Positions 25,988-52,844 of a stretch of DNA of 63,019 bases are shown here, piece after piece. A program made the translations under genes and the position numbers. How positions within the stretch are numbered: the stretch's first letter is position 1; each line of letters begins with the position of its first letter. The DNA comes from Dehalococcoidia bacterium. GTDB taxonomy: Bacteria; Chloroflexota; Dehalococcoidia; Dehalococcoidales; UBA3254. The DNA lies in assembly GCA_025361145.1 (NCBI GenBank), contig JANYAV010000016.1:1-63019 (forward strand). Direction: 5' to 3'. Under the pieces are notes generated by a model that was not told the DNA's origin, ran no database searches, and saw only the letters and a list, made by a program, of their open reading frames with translations.

Positions 25988-26644
25988 CTAGATGCCATAC
26001 TCAAAGTGGCCCAGCTTACGGAAATGCTCGGCTTTCAGCTTGCTGAACCTGGTTTGAAAAGCGACTGAAGTGAGGAAGTCTGTAGTCATGATCAGGGCAT
26101 CCTCTTTTTTATCTGTATAATAGGCCTTGCGTGATCCGACTTCTTGAAATCCGTATTTTGCGTATAAAGTCTGTGCCGTGGTGTTAGATTTCCGTACTTC
26201 CAGAGTAACGACCACAGCTTTATTCCGTATCGCCATATCTATGCCGGAAATAAGCAAAAGTTCTCCCAGCCCTTTGCCCTGACAGGATTGCCTGACAGCC
26301 ACATTGATGATATGAGCTTCGTCTACCATCACCCATAGACCCAGGAACCCGCTTATATACTCTACCTTCTGGGGGTGGTCTTCACCAGGAACTCTGGAGC
26401 TAAAAGGCCACTTAAGGTTGAGAAATGAGTGGACCGGTGTGAGCTGCAAGGCCGGTTTAGGGTTGATAACGGTCCGCTGCCCGTCACCAGCCACGGCATA
26501 ATGCGCCATTCGGTTATTCAGCTCATTGTGGAAGTTCACCGGTGGCCACATAGTAGGGAAGGCCTCGCGGTCAATAGCGGTCACCTGGGGAATGTCATCT
26601 TTAACCATCAAGCGAATATGCCAGGACAACTTAACTCTCCTCAT
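25988..26644 (-). CDS. rimI: RimI-like GNAT N-acetyltransferase
   Basis: A GNAT acetyltransferase of 218 residues. The acetyl-CoA loop is [15 protein letters not shown], preceded by INVAV, with the C-terminal [17 protein letters not shown] typical of RimI (acetylates ribosomal protein S18). Between beta strands 2 and 4 (about 55-95) there is an insertion not found in the ~150-residue RimI, and the C-terminus is also extended. It overlaps the 3' end of ruvB by 14 bases and is cotranscribed with it. Another protein N-terminus or a small molecule could be the substrate. Confidence 0.78.
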
Positions 26645-27674
26645 CCTTCAGTTTCCAGAGGCCTGGCTGCGCTTGTTTAGCTTTTTTAAAGGGGATACCC
26701 AGGTGGTCATAAGCTCTCTGGGTGGCTACGCGCCCCCGCGGGGTACGATCCAGAAAACCTAGCTGCAGGAGATAAGGTTCATATACTTCCATGACAGTAT
26801 CTGACTCTTCGCTAATGGAGGCTGCGATGGTTTCCAGCCCCACCGGACCGCCGCTGAATTTATCGATTATGGTATGCAGAATCTTATGATCTATCTCATC
26901 CAAACCCAGCATATCCACTTCCAATTTGGAAAGAGCTTCCGAGGCTACGGCCAGAGTGATCACGCCACTGGCTTTGATCTCAGCGTAATCTCGCACTCGC
27001 TTCAGCAGCCGATTAGCGACTCTGGGTGTTCCTCTAGCCCTGCAGGCGATCTCTCTTATGCCTGCGTCTTCGGTCTTGATCTTCAGGATATTGGCGGAAC
27101 GCTGCAAGATATTTTGTATGGAGTCTTGATCGTAAAAGTCGAGACGGTTGACCACACCGAAGCGATCGCGCAGGGGCGAACTGAGCATAGCATAGCGAGT
27201 AGTGGCGCCTATCAGAGTAAAGGGAGGCAGCTTCAGACGCAGACTCTTGGCGCCGGGACCTTTGCCAATCATGATATCCAGGGCAAAGTCTTCCATAGCT
27301 GGATAAAGTACCTCTTCGACTACGCGGGAGAGGCGGTGAATCTCATCAATAAATAGTATATCCTGGGCGCGCAGGTTAGTAAGGATAGCCGCCAGATCTC
27401 CAGTACGTTCGATGGCTGGGCCGGAGGTGATTTTGATGCTGACTCCCATCTCAGCGGCTATGATATAAGCCAGGGTAGTTTTACCCAGGCCGGGGGGGCC
27501 GTAAAGAAGAATGTGGTCTAGAGCTTCATCGCGCTTCCTGGCTGCGGCCATAGTGATTTTCAGGTTATCTTTGATCTTGTTTTGCCCGATGAAATCATCC
27601 AAGACACGCGGCCGGAGACTGGTTTCCAGCACCGCCTCTTCTTTATCTGAATTGCCGGTAACAACGCGTCCTAT
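26631..27674 (-). CDS. ruvB: Holliday junction helicase RuvB, probable AUA start
   Basis: The hexameric AAA+ motor that drives branch migration with RuvA. Walker A is GPPGLGKT (59-66 in this numbering), Walker B FIDEIHRL, sensor 1 GATTR. The first standard codon is a GTG at 27632, but the frame stays open upstream. Starting at ATA 27674 adds 14 residues ([14 protein letters not shown]) that resemble the usual RuvB N-terminus and give the normal 347 residues. AGGAG lies 8 bases before that ATA, whereas the GTG has only a poor, too-close site. rimI overlaps its end. ruvA is not adjacent. Confidence 0.93.
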
Positions 27675-47894: not shown

Positions 47895-49379
47895 TTATTT
47901 TTTGTTCCTCTGTAATGAAATAGTAAATCCGATGATCTCAGTGGGCGTTTGTTCGTCTTCTGTTTGCGCTTCAGACACCGCAAAAGAAGTGACGGTAGTA
48001 GAGGAAAAACGTCCGGTTTGATCCAGATATCTGGCATAAGCTAAGACAGCATTTTCATTTGAGGAAGTGCCTTCAAGGATCATATTACCGGCGGATTCCC
48101 GGATATTATTTAAAGTTATGTGGAAATCCGGTCTGCCCAGCGCTGCGGCGATATCGCCGTTGACGATTTCTTGCTGAATTGCCAATGAATCTACCGAACC
48201 CTGGATTTTCTTATTTTCCGTGATGATAACAGCGATTTCTTTTTCTAAAGCAGCGACCGTCTTATTGAGGTTCTGTTTTTGCAAGACTCTCTGGGTGTAT
48301 AGCTGGTTGGTGGTGTCAACGTTATTCTGGAGACTGGTTATATTAGCTGCGGTATTTTGAACAGTTATTAGCAACAGTATAGCAATACCGGTCACCACCA
48401 CACTGGCCGGTATACCAAAGACCTTGGTCAAAGAAATTGGTTTTGGTAAATAGGGGGTGGGCAAGACATTTAAATTAGCCGCTCTGAAAGTACTCCAGCG
48501 CACAGAAGATGGGGAATCAAAGGCCATGGCGATGTTAGCCAGATAGCGTCCGGTATCGACCTGCTCAGCACCTTTTAAATTGGTAGTCAGCGGCACCACT
48601 TTCCGCTCAATCTTTTTAGACAGTCCAGCTTGTAAATCAGGCTTGCTGATAAAATCACCCGATACATAGACTTGAGCAGTGACGTCCAACGGTCTTTCAG
48701 GATTGTTGGTGTCGTAGAATTTGATGGTACGCTCAAGATCGTTGGCAACTAATTCGATCTTTTGTGCCCAACTCAGATCCCCGTTGGGGAAAGTAACGGT
48801 GCGGACGGGTTGCGCTACACCCTCCACCATGATCACGATATCGAATTCGGTAGGCTGCATATCAACCAGAATGGCAGTGTTATCAGGCAGCATTTTGGTC
48901 AGAACCAGGGGTTTGATAGCCATGCGGTATACTATTAAACCAGCTGCTTTGACTGTTTTAACCAGGGAATCAGTGGTTTTGCGGGGTGTAGTCGCCAGGA
49001 AAACATGAGTACGGTTTTTCTGGCCGGGCAGATTGCACCAGGACAAATAGAGCTGGTCCAGCTGTATAGGCAGTACCCGGCGGGCTTCCCTTACGACCGC
49101 TTCAGATTGCATAGCTTTGGGCAGCAGCGGCAGTGTGACCGGGCGGGTCAGTGAATGCAGGCCGCTGTAACCCAGAATGATTTTTTTCTTGCGGACTTTT
49201 TGAGTTTTAATAAGCTGTCTGATGCGGTTGGCTACTTCTATCTCGTCTGTCACAATTCCATCTGTGACCAGGCCGGGTTCTAACCTGATCTCTGCCCATT
49301 TGCGAATGCGTTGAGAACGTACGACCAGCAGACGTATGCTGGCATCATCAATAAAGAGCGTGATAATATCATTCCACAT
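47895..49379 (-). CDS. PilM-PilN fusion, type IV pilus inner-membrane assembly protein
   Basis: A 494-residue protein joining two usually separate subunits. Residues 1-310 form a PilM-like actin-fold region (TLFIDDASIRLLVV at the start; VRTVTFPNGD and YVSGDF later). Residues about 340-360 form one membrane helix, followed by a coiled coil and a PilN-like periplasmic domain (about 415-494). An ATG 21 bases earlier is in frame, but AAGGGTG fits ATG 49379. It overlaps the pilO-like gene by 11 bases and lies before pilT. Confidence 0.8.
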   Translation of the reverse strand: MWNDIITLFIDDASIRLLVVRSQRIRKWAEIRLEPGLVTDGIVTDEIEVANRIRQLIKTQKVRKKKIILGYSGLHSLTRPVTLPLLPKAMQSEAVVREARRVLPIQLDQLYLSWCNLPGQKNRTHVFLATTPRKTTDSLVKTVKAAGLIVYRMAIKPLVLTKMLPDNTAILVDMQPTEFDIVIMVEGVAQPVRTVTFPNGDLSWAQKIELVANDLERTIKFYDTNNPERPLDVTAQVYVSGDFISKPDLQAGLSKKIERKVVPLTTNLKGAEQVDTGRYLANIAMAFDSPSSVRWSTFRAANLNVLPTPYLPKPISLTKVFGIPASVVVTGIAILLLITVQNTAANITSLQNNVDTTNQLYTQRVLQKQNLNKTVAALEKEIAVIITENKKIQGSVDSLAIQQEIVNGDIAAALGRPDFHITLNNIRESAGNMILEGTSSNENAVLAYARYLDQTGRFSSTTVTSFAVSEAQTEDEQTPTEIIGFTISLQRNKK

Positions 49380-50028
49380 TGGTGTCACCCTTATAATCAT
49401 AAATAATAATATTGATCATGGCGGCGGTATTGATGGGAAGAATAAAGGCAGGAGTCGGAGTAGGCGCGATTGAAGGAGTTGGCGTGGGTGTTGGTGTCGT
49501 GGTTGGCGTTGCAGGGGTCGTAGGTGTAGGAGTAGGTGTGTTAATGTCGACCTGATAGGCTTCCACTACGCTGGTGGGAAAAAGCGTCTTAATATTGCTG
49601 ATAAATCCCGCGATATTGTCAATATTGCCTTCCACCCGAAGGTTAAAGGACAAGGCGGTAAATTCATTACCGGAATAAGTGCTATTAGATTTACCGCCGG
49701 AGTTGATATTGACTATTTTAAGATCGAATTCATGGGCGGAATTAAGAATGGTTTCAGTACCAGCGATATTGTCTACAGGTGCCGCGAGTTTAGCTTTAGC
49801 AGCAGCGATCTGGGCGGTGTAGAGCTCTTTTTCTTGAGTTAGCTGGTCTCTCTTAAGGGTTAAATCATCGATTTTGGTGAGAGCCAATTTTTGTTGGTCG
49901 GCAAGAAGAGTTTTCTCCAGATTCTGCTGCTGCTGGATTTGCTGGGTACGAACCATGCCGATCAAAAACGCGCCTAGCACCACAATACCCAAGATAAGTA
50001 TTATCCAACTTGATTTACTGAATTTCAC
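49369..50028 (-). CDS. PilO-like pilus assembly protein with Thr-Pro tail region
   Basis: A 219-residue protein with one N-terminal helix (about 7-25), a coiled coil (about 30-80) and a PilO-like alpha/beta domain (about 90-165). Then comes a low-complexity Thr-Pro repeat (about 167-197) and a short end (AFILPINTAAMINIIIYDY). PilO pairs with PilN in the inner-membrane platform. The Thr-Pro tract sits just before the last strand, an unusual place. It lies between pilC and the pilMN fusion. Confidence 0.75.
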   Translation of the reverse strand: MKFSKSSWIILILGIVVLGAFLIGMVRTQQIQQQQNLEKTLLADQQKLALTKIDDLTLKRDQLTQEKELYTAQIAAAKAKLAAPVDNIAGTETILNSAHEFDLKIVNINSGGKSNSTYSGNEFTALSFNLRVEGNIDNIAGFISNIKTLFPTSVVEAYQVDINTPTPTPTTPATPTTTPTPTPTPSIAPTPTPAFILPINTAAMINIIIYDYKGDTNVE

Positions 50029-50063: not shown

Positions 50064-51272
50064 TTAACCCATGCCACTGTACATGGAATACATGGCGGAG
50101 ACCAGGGTAAGGGCCATTAAGCCTACCACCAGGCCGATGATGATAGTCATTACGGGTTGTATCATGTTGATAAAAGTCTTGGTCCTGTCTTCAGCTTCAG
50201 TTTCATAGTTCTGAGCGACTGCCAGAAGGGTATTATCGAGGTTACCAGTCTCCTCGCCGACTCTGACCATCTGGACTATCATGGGCAGGAAGACCGGATG
50301 TTTGGCCATAGGGCGGGAGAGACCTTCGCCTCCCAACATGTCTTCACGGATGCTGTTCAGGGCTTTGGTAATAAATTTATTGTTGCAGCCAGCGATTGCC
50401 AGAGGCAGTATCTCGGTTAAGGGCAATCCTGATTTGAATAGAATCGCAATAGTGCGGCAAATTTTGGCCAATTCATTATATTGATTAATGCGCCCGAAAA
50501 TGGGGAATCTCAAGGACAATTTATCCCACTGGAAACGTCCGTCCGGGGTTTTAAGGTAGATAAAACCACCCACTACAAAGGCGGCCAATATAGCCATAAT
50601 TAAGATTCCTTTTTGACGTAATAGTGTCCCGAAGTCCAGCATAAGCACCATCGAAGTGGGCATCTTGGCTCCCAGGGATGAATAAAGGCCGGCAAAGGCG
50701 GGTAAGACAAAGATGATCATAAGTGTTACCACAATAAGAGCCACAACCATGGTGATGATAGGGAAAGTCATGGCGTTTTTAATTCCTTTTTGTGAATTGA
50801 CCTGTTTTTCAGAATGATCAGCCATCTGTCTGAGAATAACTTCCAGGCCACCGGTTTGCTCGCCGACCTTTAATGACTGGCAATGAATCTGCGAAAAGAT
50901 TTGAGGATGTTGGCCTAAAGCAGCAGAAAGCTGGCTACCGGCACGAACGTCAGCGATAATTTCTGATAGCACTCTTTTGAAGATGCGGTTGCCAGCCTGG
51001 TTTTCCAGAAGTTCCAGAGCGGTGACGATATTCAAACCGGATTCAACCAGCAAGGCCATTTGGCGATAGAAAAGGACAATGTCAGTAGCCTTGATGGGAG
51101 ACAGCCTGAGCAGTAGTTTATCCAGAGTGGGGTTACTGGCAAGCTCTCTTAGATTAATCACCTGGTAGCCGGCGACAGACAGCAGATTAGTGGCCTGCTC
51201 TTCTGTGTGGGCCTCCAGTTTGCCTTTGACGATTTCCCGGCTCTCATTATAGGCTACGTATGAGTAAACTAT
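50064..51272 (-). CDS. pilC: Type IV pilus inner-membrane protein PilC/GspF, probable AUA start
   Basis: A polytopic platform protein with two repeated GspF domains. A GTG at 51161 would start inside the first conserved domain. The frame continues upstream and encodes IVYSYVAYNESREIVKGKLE, which matches the usual PilC opening (YxYxAxDxxGxxxxGxxEA). No ATG, GTG or TTG lies in this extension. ATA 51272 has GAGGT 7-8 bases upstream and gives about 402 residues, the normal length. The downstream part includes YRQMALLVESGLNIVTALE and VRVGEETGNLDNTLL. Confidence 0.9.
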   Translation of the reverse strand: MVYSYVAYNESREIVKGKLEAHTEEQATNLLSVAGYQVINLRELASNPTLDKLLLRLSPIKATDIVLFYRQMALLVESGLNIVTALELLENQAGNRIFKRVLSEIIADVRAGSQLSAALGQHPQIFSQIHCQSLKVGEQTGGLEVILRQMADHSEKQVNSQKGIKNAMTFPIITMVVALIVVTLMIIFVLPAFAGLYSSLGAKMPTSMVLMLDFGTLLRQKGILIMAILAAFVVGGFIYLKTPDGRFQWDKLSLRFPIFGRINQYNELAKICRTIAILFKSGLPLTEILPLAIAGCNNKFITKALNSIREDMLGGEGLSRPMAKHPVFLPMIVQMVRVGEETGNLDNTLLAVAQNYETEAEDRTKTFINMIQPVMTIIIGLVVGLMALTLVSAMYSMYSGMG

Positions 51273-51341
51273 GTCTTTTACCTCGCAGGGTATAATATAT
51301 TTCCTTTTTTGTTTCAGATTTATTATTGGTTAATTATTAGG

Positions 51342-52844
51342 CTAGTCCACGGCGTAGGCGTTGCGCAGCACTTCGGAAGGAGTAGTCATATTAGCCTTAA
51401 CTTTGAGCATGCCGTCCTTCAATAGAGTGAGCATCCCGCTCTTAAGCGCCTGTGCGCGCAACTCCGAAGTTGATGTACCTTTAATCAACCCCGTTCTGAT
51501 CTCGTCATTGATCTGTAATATTTCGAAGATGCCCATGCGCCCTCTATATCCGCTTTGGGAGCAGGCGGGACAGCCAGCCCCATACATGAATTCGGTGCGC
51601 TCATCGCGGGCTTCTCTGGTGTAAACCATTTGCTCAAGCAAAGAGACTCTGACAGGTCGGGCGCATTCGGGGCAGACACGGCGCACCATACGTTGCGCTA
51701 CAATGCCGGTTAAAGAAGAGGCTACCAGGAAGGGTTCGATGCCCAAATCCAATAGCCGGAAGACCACTCCTACAGCATCGTTGGCGTGTATAGATGACAG
51801 CACCAGGTGCCCGGTTAAAGCGGACTGAACAGCGATGTTGGCGGTTTCCGCGTCGCGGATTTCACCTACCAGTATGACGTTGGGGTCCAGGCGCAGGATC
51901 GAACGCAGACCGCTGGCAAAGGTCATGCCGGCCTTGGTATTGACCTGTATCTGATTGATGTTTTTAAAGCGGTATTCAACAGGGTCTTCTACAGTGATAA
52001 TGTTTCTGCCTATGCGATCCAGACAGTTGATGGAAGCGTATAGTGTTGTCGTCTTGCCGGCGCCGGTGGGGCCGCTAACCAGGATCATGCCGTAGGGCAC
52101 CTTTAGCATTTTTTCATAGGTGGTTAACGAATCATTGGAAAAACCCAACTCGGGCAGGGTCATAGTAGACCTGGCCTTATAAAGCAACCGTAAGGCAGCC
52201 ATCTCACCGTATACGGTAGGGGTGGTGCCGACACGGATATCGATAAATCTCCCCTTGGCTTCTACTGAGAACTGGCCGTCTTGAGGGCGGTGACGGTCCG
52301 CGATATTCATGTTAGCCAGTATTTTAATACGGGAGATCAGGGGAATACAGGTGGCTGGAGGTAAAGACAGAGCGTCTTGCAACGTACCGTCTATACGGTA
52401 GCGTACTCTTAATTTATCTTCTTGCGGCTGTAAATGAATATCGGAGGCGCGGGCTTTAACCGCTTCATCGATGATTAAGATTAGAGCTTGTGCGACAGGA
52501 GCGTCTGTAACAGTGGTCAAACGGATATGATCGCTATCGCCTTCCTCACCGGACGGGATATAGGAGACCTGTTTTTCTATCTCCGCGTAGGAGCGGTAGT
52601 TGAAATCAATGGCTTCTTGTATCTCGTCCCGTGGTGCTGCCTGTGGTTCTACACGCAGGTTACTTTGGTGGGCCAAGGCTTCCAGGGCAAAGATATCAGA
52701 AGGATTAACCATAGCCACAATAAGTGCGTTACCGCTGATTCTGACCGGAATGGCGTTATACTTACGCGCCATGTCCTCCGGAATCAAGGCGATCGCTTCA
52801 GGCTGCGGGAATTGTTTTCTTAAATTGATCCGAGCTTCAGACAT
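51342..52844 (-). CDS. pilB: Type IV pilus assembly ATPase PilB/GspE
   Basis: The hexameric ATPase that drives pilus extension, 500 residues. It starts with a single MshEN-type domain (about 15-85; ALIPEDMARKYNAIPV), then the ATPase: Walker A GPTGAGKT (258-265), the Asp box LVGEIRDAETANIAVQSALTGH, and the tetracysteine zinc site CPECARP and CPACSQSGYRGRMGIFEIL. It is shorter than the ~570-residue PilB proteins because of the reduced N-terminus. AAGGG precedes the ATG. It is the first gene of the minus-strand pilus operon. Confidence 0.93.
   Translation of the reverse strand: MSEARINLRKQFPQPEAIALIPEDMARKYNAIPVRISGNALIVAMVNPSDIFALEALAHQSNLRVEPQAAPRDEIQEAIDFNYRSYAEIEKQVSYIPSGEEGDSDHIRLTTVTDAPVAQALILIIDEAVKARASDIHLQPQEDKLRVRYRIDGTLQDALSLPPATCIPLISRIKILANMNIADRHRPQDGQFSVEAKGRFIDIRVGTTPTVYGEMAALRLLYKARSTMTLPELGFSNDSLTTYEKMLKVPYGMILVSGPTGAGKTTTLYASINCLDRIGRNIITVEDPVEYRFKNINQIQVNTKAGMTFASGLRSILRLDPNVILVGEIRDAETANIAVQSALTGHLVLSSIHANDAVGVVFRLLDLGIEPFLVASSLTGIVAQRMVRRVCPECARPVRVSLLEQMVYTREARDERTEFMYGAGCPACSQSGYRGRMGIFEILQINDEIRTGLIKGTSTSELRAQALKSGMLTLLKDGMLKVKANMTTPSEVLRNAYAVD

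Follow-up and report, generated by a model that had tools for sequence, protein, structure and literature searches.

Translation of pilC in a Dehalococcoidia bacterium appears to start at a conserved AUA codon, a probable built-in brake

The pilC gene of a Dehalococcoidia bacterium is predicted, with high confidence, to be translated from an AUA codon at position 51272 of the window (the whole stretch of 63,019 nucleotides that was analysed). Judged from sequence comparison, the codon is no error but a trait that a pilC clade has conserved, and it probably acts as a built-in translation brake. Four lines of evidence lend strong support to AUA initiation: conservation across the clade, constrained codons 2-37, the Shine-Dalgarno sequences, and the lack of GTG 51161, the first standard codon of the frame, in the nearest relative. 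The explanation that best covers the whole, with a probability of roughly 0.8, is initiation at AUA 51272 by the ordinary initiator tRNA, restrained by IF3 to a lower rate of PilC synthesis and giving a low ratio of PilC to PilB. The features of the region are as follows:

50064-51329, minus strand: stop-to-stop frame of pilC, read from the sequence
50064..51272, minus strand: predicted pilC coding sequence, 402 aa, type IV pilus inner-membrane platform protein of the T2SSF family
51270..51272, minus strand: predicted start codon (ATA) of pilC, at the position where 82 other loci have ATG in the alignment, conserved clade-wide
51280..51284, minus strand: GAGGT Shine-Dalgarno sequence, read directly, with a 7-base spacer to the ATA
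51159..51161, minus strand: GTG, first standard start codon of the pilC frame (codon 38 from the ATA), judged not to be the start
51342..52844, minus strand: pilB (T2SSE ATPase), ATG start, upstream of pilC with 69 bases between its stop and the ATA
49369-50028, minus strand: gene in the pilN/pilO position, no Pfam match, downstream of pilC in the same gene run
47895-49400, minus strand: pilM-like gene, PilM_2 Pfam match, downstream of pilC in the same gene run

A rereading of the frame bears out the preliminary description, which had found neither ATG, GTG nor TTG in the extension upstream of GTG 51161; 19 codons separate the in-frame stop from ATA 51272, and none of them is a standard start. 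Direct reading and translation likewise agree with its proposal that ATA 51272, with GAGGT 7-8 bases upstream, yields about 402 residues: the spacer is 7 bases and the protein has 402 residues. Membership of this protein in the PilC/T2SSF family is shown by two T2SSF stretches (Pfam, E 1.5e-56), the first beginning at residue 68, and by similarity to the solved PilC of M. xanthus along almost the entire query, from residue 7 on. Among the 1018 called genes examined (93% of the genome), pilC ranks second for coding-like sequence 5' of the first standard codon; this rank, together with the alignment of the ATA to the ATG of most other pilC loci (82 of 99), speaks against a chance pattern. The RNA fold of the start region is ordinary (z -0.73).

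The nearest relative, 77% identical, is a same-genus MAG from lake sediment (L001, titled uncultured Dehalococcoidia; its contig is shared with G001). Its start region reads GTGAGGTAACGGCC-ATA-GTTTACACATAC, and GAGGTAA precedes the ATA. Within codons 1-37 the two genes differ by 11 synonymous and 3 non-synonymous changes. Codons 2-37 give dN 0.037 and dS 0.875, vs 0.173 and 1.687 for the remainder of pilC. The conserved PilC N-terminus that had been placed 5' of GTG 51161 is thus under strong purifying selection at the protein level. The bases upstream of the ATA are not constrained, with only 2 of 11 codons identical between the two genomes. Since the codons after the ATA are under protein constraint and those before it are not conserved, the coding region begins at the ATA or very near it.

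A survey of 99 pilC loci from the window's order and from other orders of the class places the codon in a wider context. At the start position there are 82 ATG, 10 ATA (the window included), 2 ATC, 1 ACG and 1 TTG; the remaining 3 loci have a standard ATG a few codons upstream of the homologous position. The other orders of the class use ATG throughout (11 of 11 loci). A standard codon is missing from the six codons upstream in 12 of the ATA, ATC and ACG loci. In L005 the ATA, here no more than a candidate start, is accompanied by an in-frame ATG six codons upstream, and in L004 an upstream GTG and TTG stand 5' of the Shine-Dalgarno sequence. In a protein tree built without the first two residues of each PilC, 13 loci from four family groups form one clade (10 ATA, 2 ATC, 1 TTG and no ATG), with an SH-aLRT value of 87 in this quick tree, under the level starred by the program; the ACG start is one further locus beyond it. 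The non-AUG label requires 3 changes on the tree, vs 11.5 in shuffles. Alignment of PilC starts, a check that the preliminary description had proposed, puts ATA at the same position in the same-genus relative and in most of the clade, and relatives carry the same class of codon (AUH) there. Of the 13 clade rows, 10 have A as the third base of codon 1, a uniformity equalled in only 9 of 65 comparable columns, 4 of which are Met codons, without a synonym. Inside four of five checked pilC genes of the clade, ATA is the rarest isoleucine codon. An AUA start is probably ancestral in this pilC clade.

The surroundings of the start are also informative. Shine-Dalgarno strength, taken as the pairing of the 20 upstream bases with the 16S tail, averages -11.4 kcal/mol for 12 non-AUG pilC starts vs -7.1 for the 82 ATG starts (Mann-Whitney p 1.6e-5, a value that ignores the relatedness of the loci). 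The stronger pairing is a trend of the group and not of its member in the window, where the GAGGT site is well placed and of average strength (-7.3 kcal/mol). The gene directly 5' of pilC is pilB in all 14 examined loci of the non-ATG set. With the pilB ends of relatives located by tblastn, the distance from the pilB stop to the pilC start is 23-69 bases for ATA, ATC and ACG starts, vs a median of 19 for ATG starts. The longer distance fits independent initiation rather than tight coupling.

Several other explanations have to be weighed against an AUA start. The window comes from an assembly of 25 contigs, and one wrong base would suffice to hide an ATG at 51272. This sequencing or assembly error, which had been named earlier as a finding that would overturn the AUA reading, is extremely improbable given that ATA is present in independent loci: it recurs in the same-genus relative (L003) and, without a nearby upstream standard codon, in L007, L050, L053, L058, L061, L068 and L072, one of these seven lying in a single-contig genome of 2.3 Mb (G096). 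It is also very improbable that translation begins at GTG 51161 to give a 365-residue PilC, with the upstream matches as mere remnants. No standard start precedes that codon in the frame, and a protein begun there would keep both T2SSF stretches whole; however, its counterpart in the nearest relative is TTA, no Shine-Dalgarno match precedes it, and codons 2-37 are under tighter constraint than the rest of the gene, which argues that the stretch before it is no remnant. Initiation slightly further upstream, at an ATT or ATA 7-8 codons before ATA 51272, could draw on an AAGGA 3-6 bases from these codons, yet it deserves equally little credence, because the extension that holds them is poorly conserved and the 7-codon extension of the relative has no such codon. 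Moreover, in L007 (G035) a TAA stop abuts the pilC ATA, so that an upstream start is impossible in this locus. A PilB-PilC fusion made by readthrough or by frameshifting, as known for prfB, would be aided by the shared frame of the two genes in the window, where two stops separate them. Nevertheless, their relative frame varies among clade members, with gaps of 11 to 69 bases, and pilC has its own Shine-Dalgarno sequence, so that a fusion has a vanishingly small probability.

A different kind of alternative accepts AUA as the true start and denies it any regulatory role, the codon having drifted near-neutrally on ribosomes that tolerate AUA and AUC. AUA or AUC also stands at the start of infC, hisA, ruvB and some further genes in the order, as such drift would lead one to expect. 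On the other hand, all 13 members of the clade keep ATA, ATC or TTG, never ATG, and the Shine-Dalgarno sequences are stronger; the ATA codons of the genome have no overall Shine-Dalgarno excess, which argues against AUA as a general start. Drift is a possible but doubtful account of the codon.

In the preferred reading, an AUA start held back by IF3, the ordinary initiator tRNA (CAU anticodon) would read AUA 51272 with a third-base mismatch, and the Shine-Dalgarno sequence 7 bases upstream would position initiation there. Of the three CAU tRNAs in the genome, one has ordinary initiator features, and a gene for IF3 is present; a search of 93% of the genome found no tRNA with a UAU anticodon that might serve as a special initiator. 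Because IF3 disfavours such codons, PilC would probably be made at a reduced rate, slower than PilB, which has an AUG start in the same gene run. PilB acts as a hexamer, whereas PilC probably occurs in fewer copies, so the weak start could set the PilC:PilB ratio at a low value and would make PilC output dependent on IF3 activity. We infer the reduced rate and the response to IF3 from work in other bacteria, and the stoichiometric purpose from this reasoning. Relatives outside the clade use ATG, and a weak pilC start is thus not needed everywhere. In vitro, third-base pairing is the basis of discrimination by IF3 (PMC10158994), and the GTC start of Streptomyces sigR is repressed by IF3 (PMC5472188). 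In Listeria, output from an ATA start is below that from ATG (PMC13068326). AUA-initiated ccpN and citZ and AUU-initiated cvfC1 of S. aureus reached about 10% of the AUG level in poor medium; for ccpN the figure rose to as much as 30% in rich medium (PMC13009471).

That the pilC start belongs to the known class of non-canonical start codons is well supported by these comparisons. The AUU, AUC or AUA start of infC (IF3 autoregulation; E. coli, Streptomyces, S. aureus) resembles that of pilC in having an AU-non-G codon, a Shine-Dalgarno sequence and conservation, and a start of this type occurs in the same genomes as the pilC AUA. However, infC encodes IF3 itself and forms a feedback loop, whereas the product of pilC is a pilus platform protein and pilC could be no more than a target. 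Conserved AUA starts are known elsewhere from S. aureus infC and ccpN (PMC13009471). The AUA of ccpN (S. aureus, B. subtilis) and the AUU of cvfC1 (staphylococci) are likewise conserved and show extended Shine-Dalgarno pairing, as in the pilC group, with a measured output of about 10-30% of AUG; they concern other genes in another phylum and were proven by Ribo-Ret and reporters, whereas the evidence for pilC is comparative (PMC13009471). Streptomyces sigR resembles the pilC group in its conserved weak start behind a strong ribosome binding site, and this start sets the ratio of the two products of a gene pair, as that of pilC may do; the codon is GTC and not AUA, and the ratio, of sigma to anti-sigma factor, was shown experimentally (PMC5472188). 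Listeria monocytogenes offers ATA and ATT variants of rsbW, a fixed ATT in infC and a fixed ATC in rnhC, which are alike in start codon class and lowered output; the rsbW ATA is a recent mutation, whereas that of pilC is old and clade-wide (PMC13068326). The unusual part here is that several unrelated genes of one order share a non-AUG start.

Common gene callers take only ATG, GTG and TTG, and therefore probably misplace the start of pilC in this genome and, across much of the order, those of infC, hisA and ruvB. A weak start, provided that it is functional, would offer a simple means of holding an inner-membrane platform protein at low abundance compared with its ATPase, and start-codon control would extend beyond infC in Chloroflexota.

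The search for further starts of this kind covered 1.57 of the 1.70 Mb (93%) of the window's genome. A general AUA start code was considered for this genome and rejected: ATA codons near gene starts have Shine-Dalgarno sequences in 8.1% of cases vs 7.5% at other codons, with no excess in the part covered. The genes that rank high together with pilC for upstream coding-like sequence are hisA (ATC), a peptidase (ATC or CTG), a phosphoribosyltransferase and ruvB (ATA). The scan also brought up prfB, whose known programmed frameshift makes it a natural positive control:

G000 C14 129060-130127, minus strand: prfB, with the usual programmed-frameshift arrangement

When 0.8 Mb of a closed genome from the same order (G018) was compared over 504 ortholog pairs, pilC, ruvB, the peptidase and the phosphoribosyltransferase resurfaced; most other high rows resemble antisense shadows or conserved Shine-Dalgarno stretches. 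Within the order, the start position of infC (L117, L111-L127) has ATA in 16 of 17 genomes and ATC in that of the window. ruvB starts with ATA, ATC or ATT in 12 of 18 genomes. For hisA (L208-L225), 16 of 18 genomes, closed ones included, have ATA, ATC or ACG, and the window's genome has ATC (L208, G000 C3 101378); a standard codon lies 3-4 codons upstream in two of the hisA loci and at a greater distance in some others. As infC and hisA carry AUA in closed genomes too (G009), and as the AUA/AUC habit recurs in several unrelated genes, any member of the order in culture would allow a check on the wider claim. Earlier reports of non-canonical start codons in Dehalococcoidia were not found in the part of the literature searched. 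It may be, though this is rather unlikely, that the order maintains a group of genes sensed by IF3 (infC, hisA, ruvB, pilC and a few more) whose AUA/AUC starts have been conserved since ancient times, and through which the state of the initiation machinery would jointly tune pilus assembly, histidine synthesis and recombination repair.

Some minor observations concern single genes. In the window, ruvB (26631-27674, minus strand) has no standard start at its conserved N-terminus, and an apparent ATA start lies at 27672-27674 behind AGGAG. In the same genome (G000), the peptidase (C4 231-1409, minus strand), the phosphoribosyltransferase (C15 55910-56620, plus strand) and miaA (C14 110212-111153, minus strand) have seemingly non-standard starts such as ATC, CTG, ACG and ATA. 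The closed genome G018 contributes one more gene:

G018 C1, offset 96146-97415 of the first 800 kb, minus strand: purD (L251, id approximate), upstream-open ORF

This purD begins IKILVVGGGAREHTL directly after a stop and may start at a non-standard codon.
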